The notes under the pieces are model-generated. The model made no database searches and was not told where the DNA came from. It was given only the letters and a program-made list of their open reading frames with translations. From Candidatus Taylorbacteria bacterium RIFCSPHIGHO2_12_FULL_45_16 (GTDB taxonomy: Bacteria; Patescibacteriota; Minisyncoccia; Phycocordibacterales; PALSA-1337), in the NCBI GenBank assembly GCA_001821055.1, contig MHRT01000005.1, forward strand, positions 1 to 39,781: a stretch of DNA of 39,781 nucleotides, written 5' to 3'. Positions 3,245 through 23,687 of the stretch are shown one piece after another (the stretch's first letter is position 1; each line of letters begins with the position of its first letter). The position numbers and the translations under genes were made by a program.

Positions 3245-3544
3245 ATGGCCTTACAAACTACCCTCGAAAACCTCCGTGCTAAGCCAGAACACATCCGCAA
3301 GCGTGTAGCTTTCTGGACTTCTTTCGGCATCACAGCCATCATCTTCGCATTCTGGCTGGCTTCATTCTCCATAACAGGTAGCACGGCGAATACAGCCGTC
3401 GCCACTGCTGTCGCCAAAGCCGGCAATCCTGGAAGCTCACTCATTGCTGGTGTCGGAAACTTTTTTGTTGATATCAAAGAAATGATTTTTGGCGCCAGGA
3501 AGATCAAGTATAGCGAAGTGGAGGTTAGGGCGGGGGATAGGTGA
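3245..3544 (+). CDS. Hypothetical single-TM protein
   Basis: 99 aa with hydrophobic segment FWTSFGITAIIFAFWLASFSI; stop codon lies at the first bases of the left RAYT palindrome. Confidence 0.6.
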   Translation: MALQTTLENLRAKPEHIRKRVAFWTSFGITAIIFAFWLASFSITGSTANTAVATAVAKAGNPGSSLIAGVGNFFVDIKEMIFGARKIKYSEVEVRAGDR

Positions 3545-4118
3545 GGTCGGACCTCCAGATCTGGAGGTCCGACCTCAAGATAGAGCTCTGCTGCCGAATT
3601 TCGCCTAAATAATCTTTGAAACTGGAATATTCATATGTTTTTGAATATTCAATTGCTTCATTACTAAATTCTTGTCTCGATTCTCTTGTAAGATTTGGAC
3701 TCTCAATTCCAAATGGATTTAGATGAATGTAATTTATGAGGATGCGGAGATACTCCTCATCCATAACGGATTTAGCTTTGTATTTTCCTTGGAATATAGT
3801 TCCTGAATGTTTGTATTTGATATTGTAGTACATTGAATAACCGGTGCATATTTTCCTAATAAAGCGTGTCATTCCATCAGGGACGCACTCTCTTAGTGCG
3901 ATATGAAAATGGTTTGGCATTAGGCAATAAGCTACAATTTCTACTAGCATTTTTTCACGATATATTTTGAAAATACTTATTTCTGCGTGGTCTGCCAGTT
4001 GAAATGGATTGTGATTATTTCCTATATATAATAAATACAGAAAACGCCAATAATCTTGTTGATCATTGAAAATAAGTGCCCTATGAGCGCCTCGATTGTA
4101 TATGTGGTAATAGTCCAT
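3525..4118 (-). CDS. REP-associated tyrosine transposase (Y1_Tnp / RAYT family)
   Basis: 197 aa; YYHIYNRGAHRALIFNDQQDYWRFLYLL and VAYCLMPNHFHIALRE (HxH) hallmarks. Confidence 0.9.
   Translation of the reverse strand: MDYYHIYNRGAHRALIFNDQQDYWRFLYLLYIGNNHNPFQLADHAEISIFKIYREKMLVEIVAYCLMPNHFHIALRECVPDGMTRFIRKICTGYSMYYNIKYKHSGTIFQGKYKAKSVMDEEYLRILINYIHLNPFGIESPNLTRESRQEFSNEAIEYSKTYEYSSFKDYLGEIRQQSSILRSDLQIWRSDLTYPPP
3542..3577. repeat. 36-bp perfect palindrome (left RAYT flank)
   Basis: TGAGGTCGGACCTCCAGATCTGGAGGTCCGACCTCA equals its own reverse complement. Confidence 0.95.
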
Positions 4119-4160
4119 CGGTGAGGTCGAACCTCCAGATCTGGAGGTCCGACCTCACCG
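4119..4160. repeat. 42-bp palindrome with one mismatch (right RAYT flank)
   Basis: CGGTGAGGTCGAACCTCCAGATCTGGAGGTCCGACCTCACCG; abuts the RAYT ATG (4116-4118). Confidence 0.95.
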
Positions 4161-4211
4161 TATCAGATAGCGATAAAGATTCGCTGAAGAAGTGATAAAG
4201 TTTTGCTGAAG
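4160..4211 (-). promoter_or_regulatory. Site A: four 11-bp-phased repeats plus TGATAC -10-like hexamer, pointing to RAYT
   Basis: GATAAAG/GCTGAAG units start at 4172, 4183, 4194, 4205; 6 nt to GTATCA (minus TGATAC) at 4160-4165. Confidence 0.65.
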
Positions 4212-8922: not shown

Positions 8923-9918
8923 CTATTTGCTTGCAGCTATAGAAATAACAAACTTCGCCCCTTTTCCTTTTTCGCTTGTAATCTGAATCGTTCCATTCAG
9001 ATCTTTTTCGACGATAGTCTTGACTGCCATAAGCCCTATGCCACTGCCACCACTCTTGGTGGTGAATTTTTCCTTGAACATTCGGGCTTGATTTGCCGAG
9101 GAAATGCCACAGCCGGTGTCTGATACTGATAATTCTATCAAAGATTTTCCGTCTATTTCTTTTCTGATCGCCGAAATAGTCACAAGATGTTCTGTTTTTT
9201 CCAATGAAGCCAAGTCTCGGACGCAGGCATCTATGGCGTTTGAGACCAGATTCAAGATCAATTGATGCAGTCGGACTGGATGAATCGGTAAAAGAATCTT
9301 TTCTTTTTGATGGACTTCAATGCCGACGCCGACCATCCGCGCCTTGTAACCGAGGATATCCTGAATAATTTCAATTTCTCGTCGCAGATCAGCTGTGACC
9401 ACGACATTCGTGTCCTTGATTTTTTCCTGTGATACGGAATCTACGCCTAAAGATCTCCGGACGCTTTCCATGAATGAATTCATCCGTTTGGAAGAGTCGA
9501 TCACCGTCCGTATCATCTCTTTGGTTTTTTCCGAATAACCTGGATTAGTTTCGAGTTGTTGAGCATATAAAGAAACGGCCGAAAGAGGACTAATGAGATC
9601 GTGAAATAATCCTTGCGAAAGCTTCCCAAACTCGGCGTTCTTTTGGAGTTCGATCAACCGCTGTTCTTCGGCGTGGACGAAGGCGGCTGTTCGCTCGGCG
9701 ATGCGACGCTCCAGCGAATCACGCTCGCTCTCCAGGCGTTTTTCCGATGTATTCAAATAATCTCGCGAAGTTTTGATGTGACGATTTGAGAGCCAAATGA
9801 TGACCATGATAAGAACGATTATCAAACCATACATGACTATGTCCACCGCCTGAATGGAGAGTATTCCTGCGGCGGACATTCCCTCGACATACACCTGCTT
9901 TGATGCGAGGGGAGTCAT
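8923..9918 (-). CDS. Sensor histidine kinase
   Basis: 331 aa; N-terminal TM, FHDLISPLSAVSLYAQQ (H-box), LILNLVSNAIDAC, DTGCGI, GGSGIGL. Confidence 0.9.
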   Translation of the reverse strand: MTPLASKQVYVEGMSAAGILSIQAVDIVMYGLIIVLIMVIIWLSNRHIKTSRDYLNTSEKRLESERDSLERRIAERTAAFVHAEEQRLIELQKNAEFGKLSQGLFHDLISPLSAVSLYAQQLETNPGYSEKTKEMIRTVIDSSKRMNSFMESVRRSLGVDSVSQEKIKDTNVVVTADLRREIEIIQDILGYKARMVGVGIEVHQKEKILLPIHPVRLHQLILNLVSNAIDACVRDLASLEKTEHLVTISAIRKEIDGKSLIELSVSDTGCGISSANQARMFKEKFTTKSGGSGIGLMAVKTIVEKDLNGTIQITSEKGKGAKFVISIAASK

Positions 9919-10010
9919 GTTATATCTGCGGCCAAAGGGAAGATACGCGTTTCATAAATGTCATTATGCACCTATTGATAAGGTTATGTCGACACATAAC
10001 TGGCATTACC

Positions 10011-10062
10011 ATATCAGTAGATGATAAAGAAATAATAAAGAAGTGATAAAGTTTTGCTGAAG
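10011..10062 (-). promoter_or_regulatory. Site B: four 11-bp-phased repeats plus TGATAT, pointing to the histidine kinase
   Basis: Units at 10023, 10034, 10045, 10056; 6 nt to ATATCA (minus TGATAT) at 10011-10016. Confidence 0.7.
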
Positions 10063-10080: not shown

Positions 10081-10752
10081 TTATAACGATATCATGTATC
10101 CACGACCAGTGACATTGCTAATCAAATCGGGTTTGCCGGCGATATTGAGCTTCTTTCGGATATTACGCATGTGTGTTTCTATGGTATTGGAAAGAATGTC
10201 GCTGTCGGCTGTCCAGACATGTTCCATGATGAGTACACGCGAGACCATGGTGCCTTGGTGGCGAATAAGATATTCAAGTACCCCAAATTCTTTCCGGGTC
10301 AGATTTATCGTTATTCCGCCGCGAGTAACCGTGCGTTTTTCCAGATTCATGACAATGTCTCCGACGTTCAGAGTTGTTTCGGGAGGTTTGATCTGCGGGC
10401 GACGATGCAGAGCTTCCAACCGCGCGTGCAATTCTTCCAATTCAAATGGTTTGACCAAATAATCATCGGCGCCATGATTGAGCGCGGCCACTTTTATTTC
10501 AAGAGAATCTATGATTGAAAGAAATATGATTGGGGTAGTGCGTCCGACACCCCTGATCTCTTTGCAGACATCCAAGCCGTTTTTCTTGGGCAGGGAATAG
10601 TCAAGCATGATGACATCATAATCGTAGCTTTTTCCGAGGAATGAACCTTCGCTCCCATCAACCGCCAGATCGACGGTATATTCTTTGGCGATCAAGCTTT
10701 TCTTGATTACTTGGGCGAGATTTGGATCATCTTCAACAATGAGTACTTTCAT
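10081..10752 (-). CDS. OmpR/PhoB-family response regulator
   Basis: 223 aa; VLIVEDDPNLAQVI receiver, C-terminal winged helix LTRKEFGVLEYLIRHQGTMVSRVLIMEHVW. Confidence 0.93.
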   Translation of the reverse strand: MKVLIVEDDPNLAQVIKKSLIAKEYTVDLAVDGSEGSFLGKSYDYDVIMLDYSLPKKNGLDVCKEIRGVGRTTPIIFLSIIDSLEIKVAALNHGADDYLVKPFELEELHARLEALHRRPQIKPPETTLNVGDIVMNLEKRTVTRGGITINLTRKEFGVLEYLIRHQGTMVSRVLIMEHVWTADSDILSNTIETHMRNIRKKLNIAGKPDLISNVTGRGYMISL

Positions 10753-14693: not shown

Positions 14694-14792
14694 CAATAAC
14701 TGCTTGTGGCCATTGGAGTTGCGCCCAAGATGGTACAATCGGCACTGTTGCTGATGGCAGGCACTATGACAAGCCCCTTTACGGGGCTTGTG
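14694..14792 (+). ncRNA. Candidate small RNA ending in a strong hairpin
   Basis: From the predicted TSS to ACAAGCCCC-TTTA-CGGGGCTTGT; internal stem-loop CCATTGG...CCAAGATGG. No T-run after the last hairpin. Confidence 0.35.
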
Positions 14793-15186
14793 CGCTTGTC
14801 GAGGATCTTCTGTCCATGACACTGAAAAAATGTTTGTTGCCGTTGTCTATTTGTCTGATTATGATTCGTATTCTCTTTTTGTTTTCAAAACGAGTGAATG
14901 TCCATGAATGTATAAATGATGATGCGTTGTTTCTGTTCGGTCCAGAATAATATTTTGAAAATGTTTGAGCCGTTTTAAGTATTGGTATCACTCTTTCAAA
15001 AAGTCTCATCCTGCGCATGCGATCAGATAGTGACCTGGGTTTTCCGTGTTTAAACATAAGATGGTAAAATCCATGGTAATTAAAAACAACCACTTGGCCA
15101 CCAAAAGCGGGGCAGATTGTGGAACTTACTTGATAGTAGATTCTCTTAGCTTCATCAATAAATGTTTGGTTTTCCTTGTCTTGCAT
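14779..15186 (-). CDS. Hypothetical protein, possible BECR-fold (RelE/EndoU/colicin-like) nuclease
   Basis: 135 aa; GFYHLMFKHGKPRS...RRMRLFERVIPILKTA...RIRIIIRQIDNGNKHFFSVMD. Family call is tentative. Confidence 0.5.
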   Translation of the reverse strand: MQDKENQTFIDEAKRIYYQVSSTICPAFGGQVVVFNYHGFYHLMFKHGKPRSLSDRMRRMRLFERVIPILKTAQTFSKYYSGPNRNNASSFIHSWTFTRFENKKRIRIIIRQIDNGNKHFFSVMDRRSSTSAQAP

Positions 15187-15195
15187 GTCCGAATC

Positions 15196-15236
15196 CTATC
15201 AAACTAGAATGAAGAAACAATGAAGAAATGATGAAG
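15196..15236 (-). promoter_or_regulatory. Site C: three 11-bp-phased repeats plus TGATAG, pointing to the 14779-15186 gene
   Basis: AATGAAG/AATGAAG/GATGAAG at 15208, 15219, 15230; 6 nt to CTATCA at 15196-15201. Confidence 0.65.
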
Positions 15237-22431: not shown

Positions 22432-23655
22432 ATGGATAAAAAAGCTGTTTTTGTATGGAGTTTATACGATTTTGCAAACTCGTTTGTATTCATCAGCTTT
22501 CTTGTCTATTTCTCAAAATGGCTGGTTATAAACCAGGGTCTATCCGATTGGTGGTATAACGCAACATTTATCATTGGTTCCATCGGCCTCATATTTTTGG
22601 CGCCATGGTTCGGTAATAGAGCTGACAAACTCAAGAAAGGTAAAAAGTATCTTATCTATTCGACCAGTGGGTGTTTTATTTTTTATGCATTGGCGATTGG
22701 GAGTGCAATTGGAGGACTGAACGTCTTCCTGTCGGCCCTTTTCTTTGGTCTCGGTAATTTTTTCTACCAGTTTTCTTTTGTATTTTACAACCCACTTCTC
22801 AATACAATTTCGCATGCCGGAAACAGGGGTAAAATATCAGGCATTGGTTTTCTCTCAAGTTATACCGGTCAAATCTGTGGTATTTTGGTCGCTCTGCCTT
22901 TTGTTCTCGGAAAAGTATCTTTGGGTATTGATCCCTTGGTAGCTGCGCTCATTCCTCAGGTGATTATATTTATACTATTATCCATCCCACTATTTCTCAA
23001 CAAAGAAATATTCACATCGACTTCGACGAAAGAACCTGGAGCCGACATGCTTGACTCCTTGAGAATATTGATAGCTCTGCCAGGCGTCCTCCTATTCCTG
23101 GTCTCATTCTTCTTTTTTAATGATGCGATTACGACGTTGGTAAATAACTTTTCCATATTCACCTCCTCAATATTTGGAGTCTCAGATGGACAAATAAGTA
23201 CGCTGACGTTGTTGGTGATCGTCTGTGCCGGTATCGGGGCGATGGGCTGGGGGTGGTTGGCTGATAAAATCGGCTCAAAGAAAACCTTACTATATATTAT
23301 TCTCAGCTGGGTTATTATTATTCCTATTATGGCGTGGGTCGGAAACTATCAAATATTCTTCATCTTTTCCATATTGGCCGGTTTGAGTATCGGAGGAACA
23401 CTTTCTACGTCTCGACTGGTACTTATTGAGTTGGTGCCGGAGCGTGTGCTCAATTCGAGTTTTGGCATCTATGCCATCTCTGAGCGTGCTGCAACTATTA
23501 TTGGCCCTCTGGCTTGGAGTATGGTTCTTTCGATTGGAGGCTATCGCTGGGCGATGTTTTCGATGGTTGTTTTTATGGTCGTTTCGGTGTTGTTTATGGT
23601 GAAGGTTTTTAGAAACAAAAAACCGCCATTACAATTGGCTTCTGTCGAACCTTAA
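22432..23655 (+). CDS. MFS transporter, UMF1/Atg22-like
   Basis: FVWSLYDFANSFVFISFLVYFSKWLV; PWFGNRADKLKKGKKYL; about 12 hydrophobic segments. Confidence 0.82.
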   Translation: MDKKAVFVWSLYDFANSFVFISFLVYFSKWLVINQGLSDWWYNATFIIGSIGLIFLAPWFGNRADKLKKGKKYLIYSTSGCFIFYALAIGSAIGGLNVFLSALFFGLGNFFYQFSFVFYNPLLNTISHAGNRGKISGIGFLSSYTGQICGILVALPFVLGKVSLGIDPLVAALIPQVIIFILLSIPLFLNKEIFTSTSTKEPGADMLDSLRILIALPGVLLFLVSFFFFNDAITTLVNNFSIFTSSIFGVSDGQISTLTLLVIVCAGIGAMGWGWLADKIGSKKTLLYIILSWVIIIPIMAWVGNYQIFFIFSILAGLSIGGTLSTSRLVLIELVPERVLNSSFGIYAISERAATIIGPLAWSMVLSIGGYRWAMFSMVVFMVVSVLFMVKVFRNKKPPLQLASVEP

Positions 23656-23658
23656 AAC

Positions 23659-23687
23659 GATAAAGATTTGCTGAAGATTTAATGATT
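23659..23687. promoter_or_regulatory. Site D: degenerate 11-bp-phased repeat upstream of the rpsS promoter
   Basis: GATAAAG 23659, GCTGAAG 23670, AATGATT 23681; no TGATAN hexamer at the expected place. Confidence 0.45.

Follow-up and report, generated by a model that had tools for sequence, protein, structure and literature searches.

Site B, an array of 7-bp direct repeats lying between the genes for a response regulator and a histidine kinase, is very probably one of about 14 activator arrays in a competence/DNA-uptake regulon of that regulator (10081-10752). The array is found in a 39,781-nt stretch of DNA (the window) from the very small genome (754 kb, 98% complete, 12 contigs) of an uncultured member of the Patescibacteria. 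The arrays, their geometry, the genes behind them, their conservation and the covariation of an RNA hairpin at site B can be read directly from the sequence and are described below, followed by the model of regulation to which they point.

Arrays of an 11-bp box mark about 14 promoters

Site B consists of four 7-mers separated on the minus strand by the linkers aaaa, actt and attt (Table 1). Their sequence, their coordinates and their exact 11-bp spacing are as originally predicted, and the related arrays that had been claimed at sites A and C are present. In the window, a pattern of two units followed by N6 and TGATA gave 9 matches with ≤3 mismatches, against 0.41 expected, and 0 shuffles attained 9. 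In the 754-kb genome, the same pattern gave 9 exact matches versus 0 for a reversed control pattern, and these matches sit at promoters. A mismatch-tolerant scan added arrays, leading to a count of about 14 promoters genome-wide. A further relaxed pattern, reduced to TAnnnT and allowing 3 mismatches, was uninformative genome-wide (127 matches vs. 132 for the control). On sequence grounds, this 11-bp repeat is a genuine control element at about 14 promoters.

The original prediction had placed a -10-like hexamer, TGATAT, 6 bp beyond the last repeat. This was mis-registered: the invariant positions in the alignment are those of TGn-TAnnnT, which rules out TGATAT as the -10 and is why we place the hexamer (TATGGT at site B) 9 bp past the last 7-mer, not 6. 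This element, an extended -10, is found in 13/13 aligned TG-type sites of the genome; the comEC site retains the 9-bp spacing, with a TACAAT hexamer and no TG. The distance from array to TAnnnT is 9 bp, occasionally 10, and TAnnnT is retained in 28 of the 29 loci orthologous to site B (positions located by script). This is the layout of a Pho-box-like operator, with 7-bp direct repeats every 11 bp in place of a -35 element and a fixed distance to the -10. The penultimate repeat overlaps the -35 position, which by analogy would correspond to the class II activation layout of PhoB-like proteins. Among comEC and comM orthologs, an ATG is found 6 nt past TAnnnT in 28 of 43 placeable promoters (17 others fell outside the scripted fixed register and were left unplaced), and their mRNAs are therefore predicted to be leaderless. 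In this genome, the promoters of comM, of a gene for the ComEC C-terminal domain and of site C also show a predicted leaderless ATG 6 nt past the hexamer.

Table 1. Features at sites A, B and C and elsewhere in the window, with the box-driven loci of a tRNA-like RNA
Feature	Position	Strand	Remarks
Y1_Tnp transposase (IS200-like/REP-associated), under site A	3525-4118	minus	PF01797, 4.5e-8
Near-perfect palindrome	4119-4160	minus	two 21-nt arms, 95% complementary; between site A -10 and transposase ATG; 5' UTR hairpin
Site A array	4172-4211	minus	four units; extended -10 at 4157-4165; upstream of Y1 transposase gene
Histidine kinase	8923-9918	minus	PF02518, 1.9e-22; single N-terminal membrane helix; true start may be 9834
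Predicted closing helix	CAUGACU 9913-9919 / AGUCAUG 9832-9838	minus	in minimum free energy and centroid structures
Rest of predicted RNA / kinase leader	9841-9982	minus	fold z = -3.65
Hairpin 3	9841-9877	minus	
Hairpin 2	9883-9909	minus	GCAGG loop
Leader stretch AUCUUCCC	within 9937-9948	minus	
Leader stretch CUUAUCAA	9974-9982	minus	
5' hairpin GUUAUGU-GUCG-ACAUAAC	9983-10000	minus	at predicted transcription start
Site B extended -10, TGA-TATGGT	10008-10016 (hexamer 10008-10013)	minus	TGATATGGT
Site B array	10023-10062	minus	CTTCAGC (10056-10062), CTTTATC (10045-10051), CTTTATT (10034-10040), CTTTATC (10023-10029); 11-bp spacing; predicted regulator binding sites
Response regulator, OmpR/PhoB family	10081-10752	minus	receiver PF00072, 5.7e-26; winged helix PF00486 (Trans_reg_C), 1.6e-21
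135-aa small protein, weak LPD3 similarity, under site C	14779-15186	minus	ATG 6 nt past -10, predicted leaderless
Site C array	15208-15236	minus	three units; extended -10 at 15193-15201
Degenerate two-unit array	23648-23676	minus	at end of ORF 22432-23655; no matching -10
Box-driven tRNA-like RNA loci	L002 (C4:17506 of this genome), L132, L139, L240, L243, L245, L274		

The arrays precede genes for DNA uptake

The genes behind arrays in this genome include comEC (PF03772, 3.1e-46), a gene for a 337-aa protein with a PDB match to the C-terminal beta-lactamase-like domain of solved ComEC structures (5e-6), comM/yifB (YifB, TIGR00368), a PilB/ComGA-like T2SSE pilus ATPase, an N-methyl pilin, and rpsF (S6) followed by ssb. 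Since the ComEC C-terminal domain is encoded apart, by a gene that has a box to itself, comEC is split. The other targets are two Y1 transposases (one at site A), a lipase-like secreted protein, a short coiled-coil protein, two related small proteins (one at site C), a tRNA-like RNA and site B itself. The core competence gene dprA has no array upstream in this genome, and the targets include genes that are not classical competence genes, namely those for the Y1 transposase, the lipase-like protein and MazF-like toxins. From the box common to comEC, comM, the ATPase, the pilin, ssb and the ComEC C-terminal domain, as would be the case in a competence regulon, we infer that the array set is a natural-competence/DNA-uptake regulon, with transformation as its presumed phenotype. 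The genome-wide regulon of the original prediction is thus borne out at about 14 promoters, and its DNA-uptake character is an addition.

Several of these loci have further features. In the separate ComEC C-terminal domain (L010), the usual metal-binding His motif appears degenerate. Palindromes of the GGTTCCACC / GGTCGGACC type flank several arrays (window 4119-4160; L010, L013, L028), and palindrome-flanked arrays adjoin Y1 (REP-associated) transposases, which are themselves regulon members. The site C protein belongs to a family of ~125-aa proteins with weak LPD3 similarity that lie under the box in several genomes (window 14779-15186, L012, L149, L279, L281, L291, L250); its AlphaFold model is confident (pLDDT 89) and has no PDB match at E ≤ 0.001. 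In relatives, the box is also found ahead of a PemK/MazF-like toxin (L282; PF02452, 4e-10), of proteins that resemble this toxin by sequence (L265, L276, L242) and of a DUF3800 protein (L287, 2e-17).

The arrays are conserved across a genus and homogenised within genomes

We measured self-similarity at a lag of 11 bp next to orthologous genes of relatives. The signal was z = 17.6 upstream of 30 comEC orthologs, z = 14.5 upstream of 30 comM orthologs and z = 17.5 downstream of 28 regulator orthologs (the site B loci), while neighbouring lags were flat and random windows gave -0.2 ± 1.0. A relaxed pattern produced 74 matches in 34 genomes of the genus versus 5 for the control, and strict patterns miss some relatives because the half-sites drift. 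Within this sample, in which many genomes are draft assemblies and our own scripts set several of the registers and unit counts, the array-bearing genes are the same set in about 30 species of the genus. In same-family genomes outside the genus, the comEC array is clear in one (G034, p < 0.005) and weaker in a second (G035, p = 0.015). An order-wide system was rejected, the comEC arrays of other families being unconvincing.

Within a single genome, the arrays ahead of different genes share 83% identity over 42 bp, compared with 58% between orthologous promoters of different species, in a comparison set drawn from pattern searches. Because such searches could bias the result, we repeated the test with comEC, comM and site B loci located via protein homology, and obtained a score of 28.0 within genomes versus 13.5 for the same gene between genomes (the largest of 1000 permutations was 15.9). 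The arrays are homogenised within genomes and divergent between them. Linker bases are also common to arrays of one genome (e.g., those of sites A and B), which means either that the preference of the regulator spans the linkers or that arrays were copied between promoters.

Both identity comparisons, and the palindromes beside the arrays at comEC, the ComEC C-terminal gene and both Y1 genes, are what would be expected if the arrays were not a regulatory box but a selfish or RAYT-mobilised repeat that has spread into promoters. We consider this very unlikely: the spacing to TAnnnT is fixed, the arrays lie close to promoters, and one set of orthologous genes bears them in many species despite diverged array sequences. 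The arrays therefore track gene function, which a selfish repeat would not do. We favour a regulatory box, which copying may still renew.

The adjacent response regulator is the likely activator

The phospho-accepting Asp of the regulator is present in 29/29 orthologs, and its closest relatives are in UBA5187 and a Taylorbacteria genome. With a receiver, a winged helix and 7-bp repeats at 11-bp spacing, the description of site B as an OmpR/PhoB-type box array is accurate. As had also been foreseen, box and regulator are conserved together, an array lying directly behind the regulator gene in 29/29 same-genus orthologs examined. The recognition helix (SNTVEAHIRNLRKK) shows 89% mean conservation versus 75% across the DNA-binding domain, and its Arg-Asn is lost only in G008 and G012. 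In G008, G occupies position 2 of the half-site in 6/6 units versus 0/201 in other genomes; in G012, A occupies position 4 in 5/9 units versus 21/201, with part of these units mis-registered. G008, one of the two genomes without Arg-Asn, is thus the only one with differently beginning half-sites. This joint change of helix and half-site, correlative and mainly from one genome, is the best evidence that the regulator reads the boxes, and the regulator (10081-10752) is likely the activator of the arrays, which it would bind.

Binding being predicted, the arrays might be recognised by another regulator, such as a second OmpR-type protein encoded elsewhere, and the adjacency would then be incidental. 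Two genomes (G030 and G033, with assemblies only 87% and 76% complete, respectively) have arrays and no full-length match to the regulator. We nevertheless find this reading unlikely. Each same-genus regulator ortholog examined is followed by the array, the altered recognition helix of G008 coincides with a half-site change unique to that genome, and the five other matches to the regulator in the genome are partial, receiver-type and have E values no better than 2e-7. The adjacent regulator remains our candidate.

The regulon had also been proposed to be autoregulated. Direct autoregulation of the regulator is not supported: the stretch upstream of its gene carries no array and gives no periodic signal at 11 bp (z = 1.2). 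Any feedback would therefore pass via the kinase and the RNA described below. In relatives, several tblastn matches to the kinase begin at query residue 21-26 or later, which is the basis for a possible true kinase start at 9834.

Site B is predicted to yield a structured RNA

Site B had been described as the histidine kinase promoter. In the window, RNA from about 10000 would indeed read into the kinase. However, a kinase is found within about 0.8 kb downstream in only 15/29 loci, and some genomes (e.g., G016) have an intrinsic terminator after the RNA and no kinase nearby. A 5' hairpin begins 3-9 nt (mostly 6-7) past TAnnnT, at the predicted transcription start, in 29/29 loci. Since the hairpin is present in all loci and the kinase in barely half of them, the conserved product is the structured RNA, of which the kinase leader is one form.

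The GUCG loop of the 5' hairpin is invariant in the 29 orthologous loci. In a 25-locus alignment, 6 of its 8 stem pairs differ on both sides, the covariation score being 0.35 versus 0.18 for shuffled alignments (0/500 reach 0.35), and in G009 the stem is switched to GCACCAU/AUGGUGC. Hairpin 2 has a G(G)CAG loop across loci and stems with a mean of 7.85 bp versus 4.14 bp when shuffled (0/200). In the predicted fold, the closing helix spans both candidate kinase start codons, so translational control of the kinase by the leader RNA is possible. A known RNA family was rejected because Rfam gave no match for the site B RNA (one locus has a below-cut-off match elsewhere). A peptide gene between regulator and kinase was rejected as well: by manual reading, the frames around a conserved CUUCC stretch disagree between G000 and G013, and we therefore prefer an RNA.

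Since the hairpin stem doubles as a DNA inverted repeat at the start site, site B could be a kinase promoter only, with the hairpin serving as a DNA operator for a second repressor. This is improbable, because the asymmetric GUCG loop is invariant in 29/29 loci while the stems change compensatorily, even to the G009 form, and because the second hairpin, and in some genomes the terminator, is present without the kinase. These findings point to an undescribed structured non-coding RNA that site B would yield from the predicted transcription start.

In seven genomes, the box lies ahead of another RNA, with tRNA-like features, which in six is preceded by a 5' hairpin. Behind it lie a TTGAC(A/T)-type (sigma-70-type) promoter and a small RNA, which in most genomes has an evident intrinsic terminator. 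Stretches of this small RNA are complementary to parts of the tRNA-like RNA, over 12 nt with the anticodon arm in G000 and over 12 and 13 nt with the 3' end including CCA in G023 and G030, respectively. This CCA is untemplated, the genome reading CAA and CAT there in G023 and G030. The lengths of complementarity were reached in 0/300 shuffled controls for G000, G023, G009 and G030; complementarity is weaker in G003 and G021, and insignificant in G013 (0.077). The two RNAs may thus be a cognate pair, as their complementarity suggests.

Comparison with known systems

The unit of the Pho box is 7+4 bp. PhoB binds head-to-tail direct repeats that overlap the -35 region at a strict spacing from the core promoter (PMC3348028, PMC10294691). 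Our system resembles that of Escherichia coli in its OmpR-family regulator, its 7+4-bp head-to-tail direct repeats and its strict spacing to the core promoter. It differs in its half-site (CTTYATC-like vs. CTGTCAT), its number of units (up to four or more) and its extended -10. Its targets are those of DNA uptake (competence, pilus, ssb, small RNAs), and we identified no gene for phosphate uptake or scavenging among them. This, and a TIGR02154 score of 163.6 bits versus a cut-off of 296.2, led us to reject PhoB as the identity of the regulator.

CiaR of streptococci, also OmpR-type, recognises TTTAAG-N5-TTTAAG with an 11-bp period, 10 bp from the -10, and its regulon contains small RNAs (csRNAs) and is linked to competence (PMC3091779). 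The regulator type, the 11-bp direct repeat, the small RNA in the regulon and the competence link are all shared. In contrast, the half-site here is TTTATC/TTCAGC, the regulon contains the uptake machinery itself, and both the phylum and the recognition helix are different. The site B RNA, placed between regulator and kinase, has no recognised relation to csRNAs: the half-sites differ from the CiaR box that accompanies a csRNA core, and Rfam gave no match.

In Southlakia (Saccharibacteria), comEC is required for natural transformation (PMC10633639). The Com/T4P uptake system of Saccharibacteria combines a channel of the ComEC type with parts of a type IV pilus, as here; what differs here is a candidate regulator, boxes and a target list, in another Patescibacteria lineage. 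A text search of PMC10633639 found neither a response regulator nor a two-component system.

A model for control of DNA uptake and its implications

In the model that we infer for phosphorylation, binding, activation, transcription start and the role of the regulon in transformation, the kinase would phosphorylate the regulator, which would then bind head-to-tail to the four direct repeats of 7+4 bp found in place of a -35 element. Bound regulator would activate RNA polymerase at the extended -10 (TGnTAnnnT) 9 bp downstream, in a PhoB- or CiaR-like manner. About 14 arrays, including those of comEC, the ComEC C-terminal gene, comM/yifB, the ATPase, the pilin and rpsF-ssb, would be switched on together. 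The site B RNA, with its GUCG-loop hairpin at +1, would here be the kinase leader and could fold over the kinase start codons, and feedback would take the path of RNA and kinase rather than that of the regulator's own promoter. Most likely, one regulator turns on the DNA-uptake genes jointly via the box.

To our knowledge, gene regulation in Patescibacteria is almost unknown, and in the open papers that we searched no competence regulator or regulon is described for them. We judge it an evenly balanced question whether this is a switch dedicated to competence in one Patescibacteria family, with operator arrays that evolve together at every target promoter of a genome, and whether it controls the uptake machinery together with two families of undescribed RNAs (the RNA with the GUCG hairpin, between regulator and kinase, and the tRNA-like RNA with its complementary small RNA). 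Competence is a handle for engineering the few cultured Patescibacteria, and our analysis offers a named candidate regulator, a box and a list of predicted targets with conservation in some 30 species. The homogenisation of operator arrays within genomes would also be of interest outside the Patescibacteria, as would the regulon's RNA partners.
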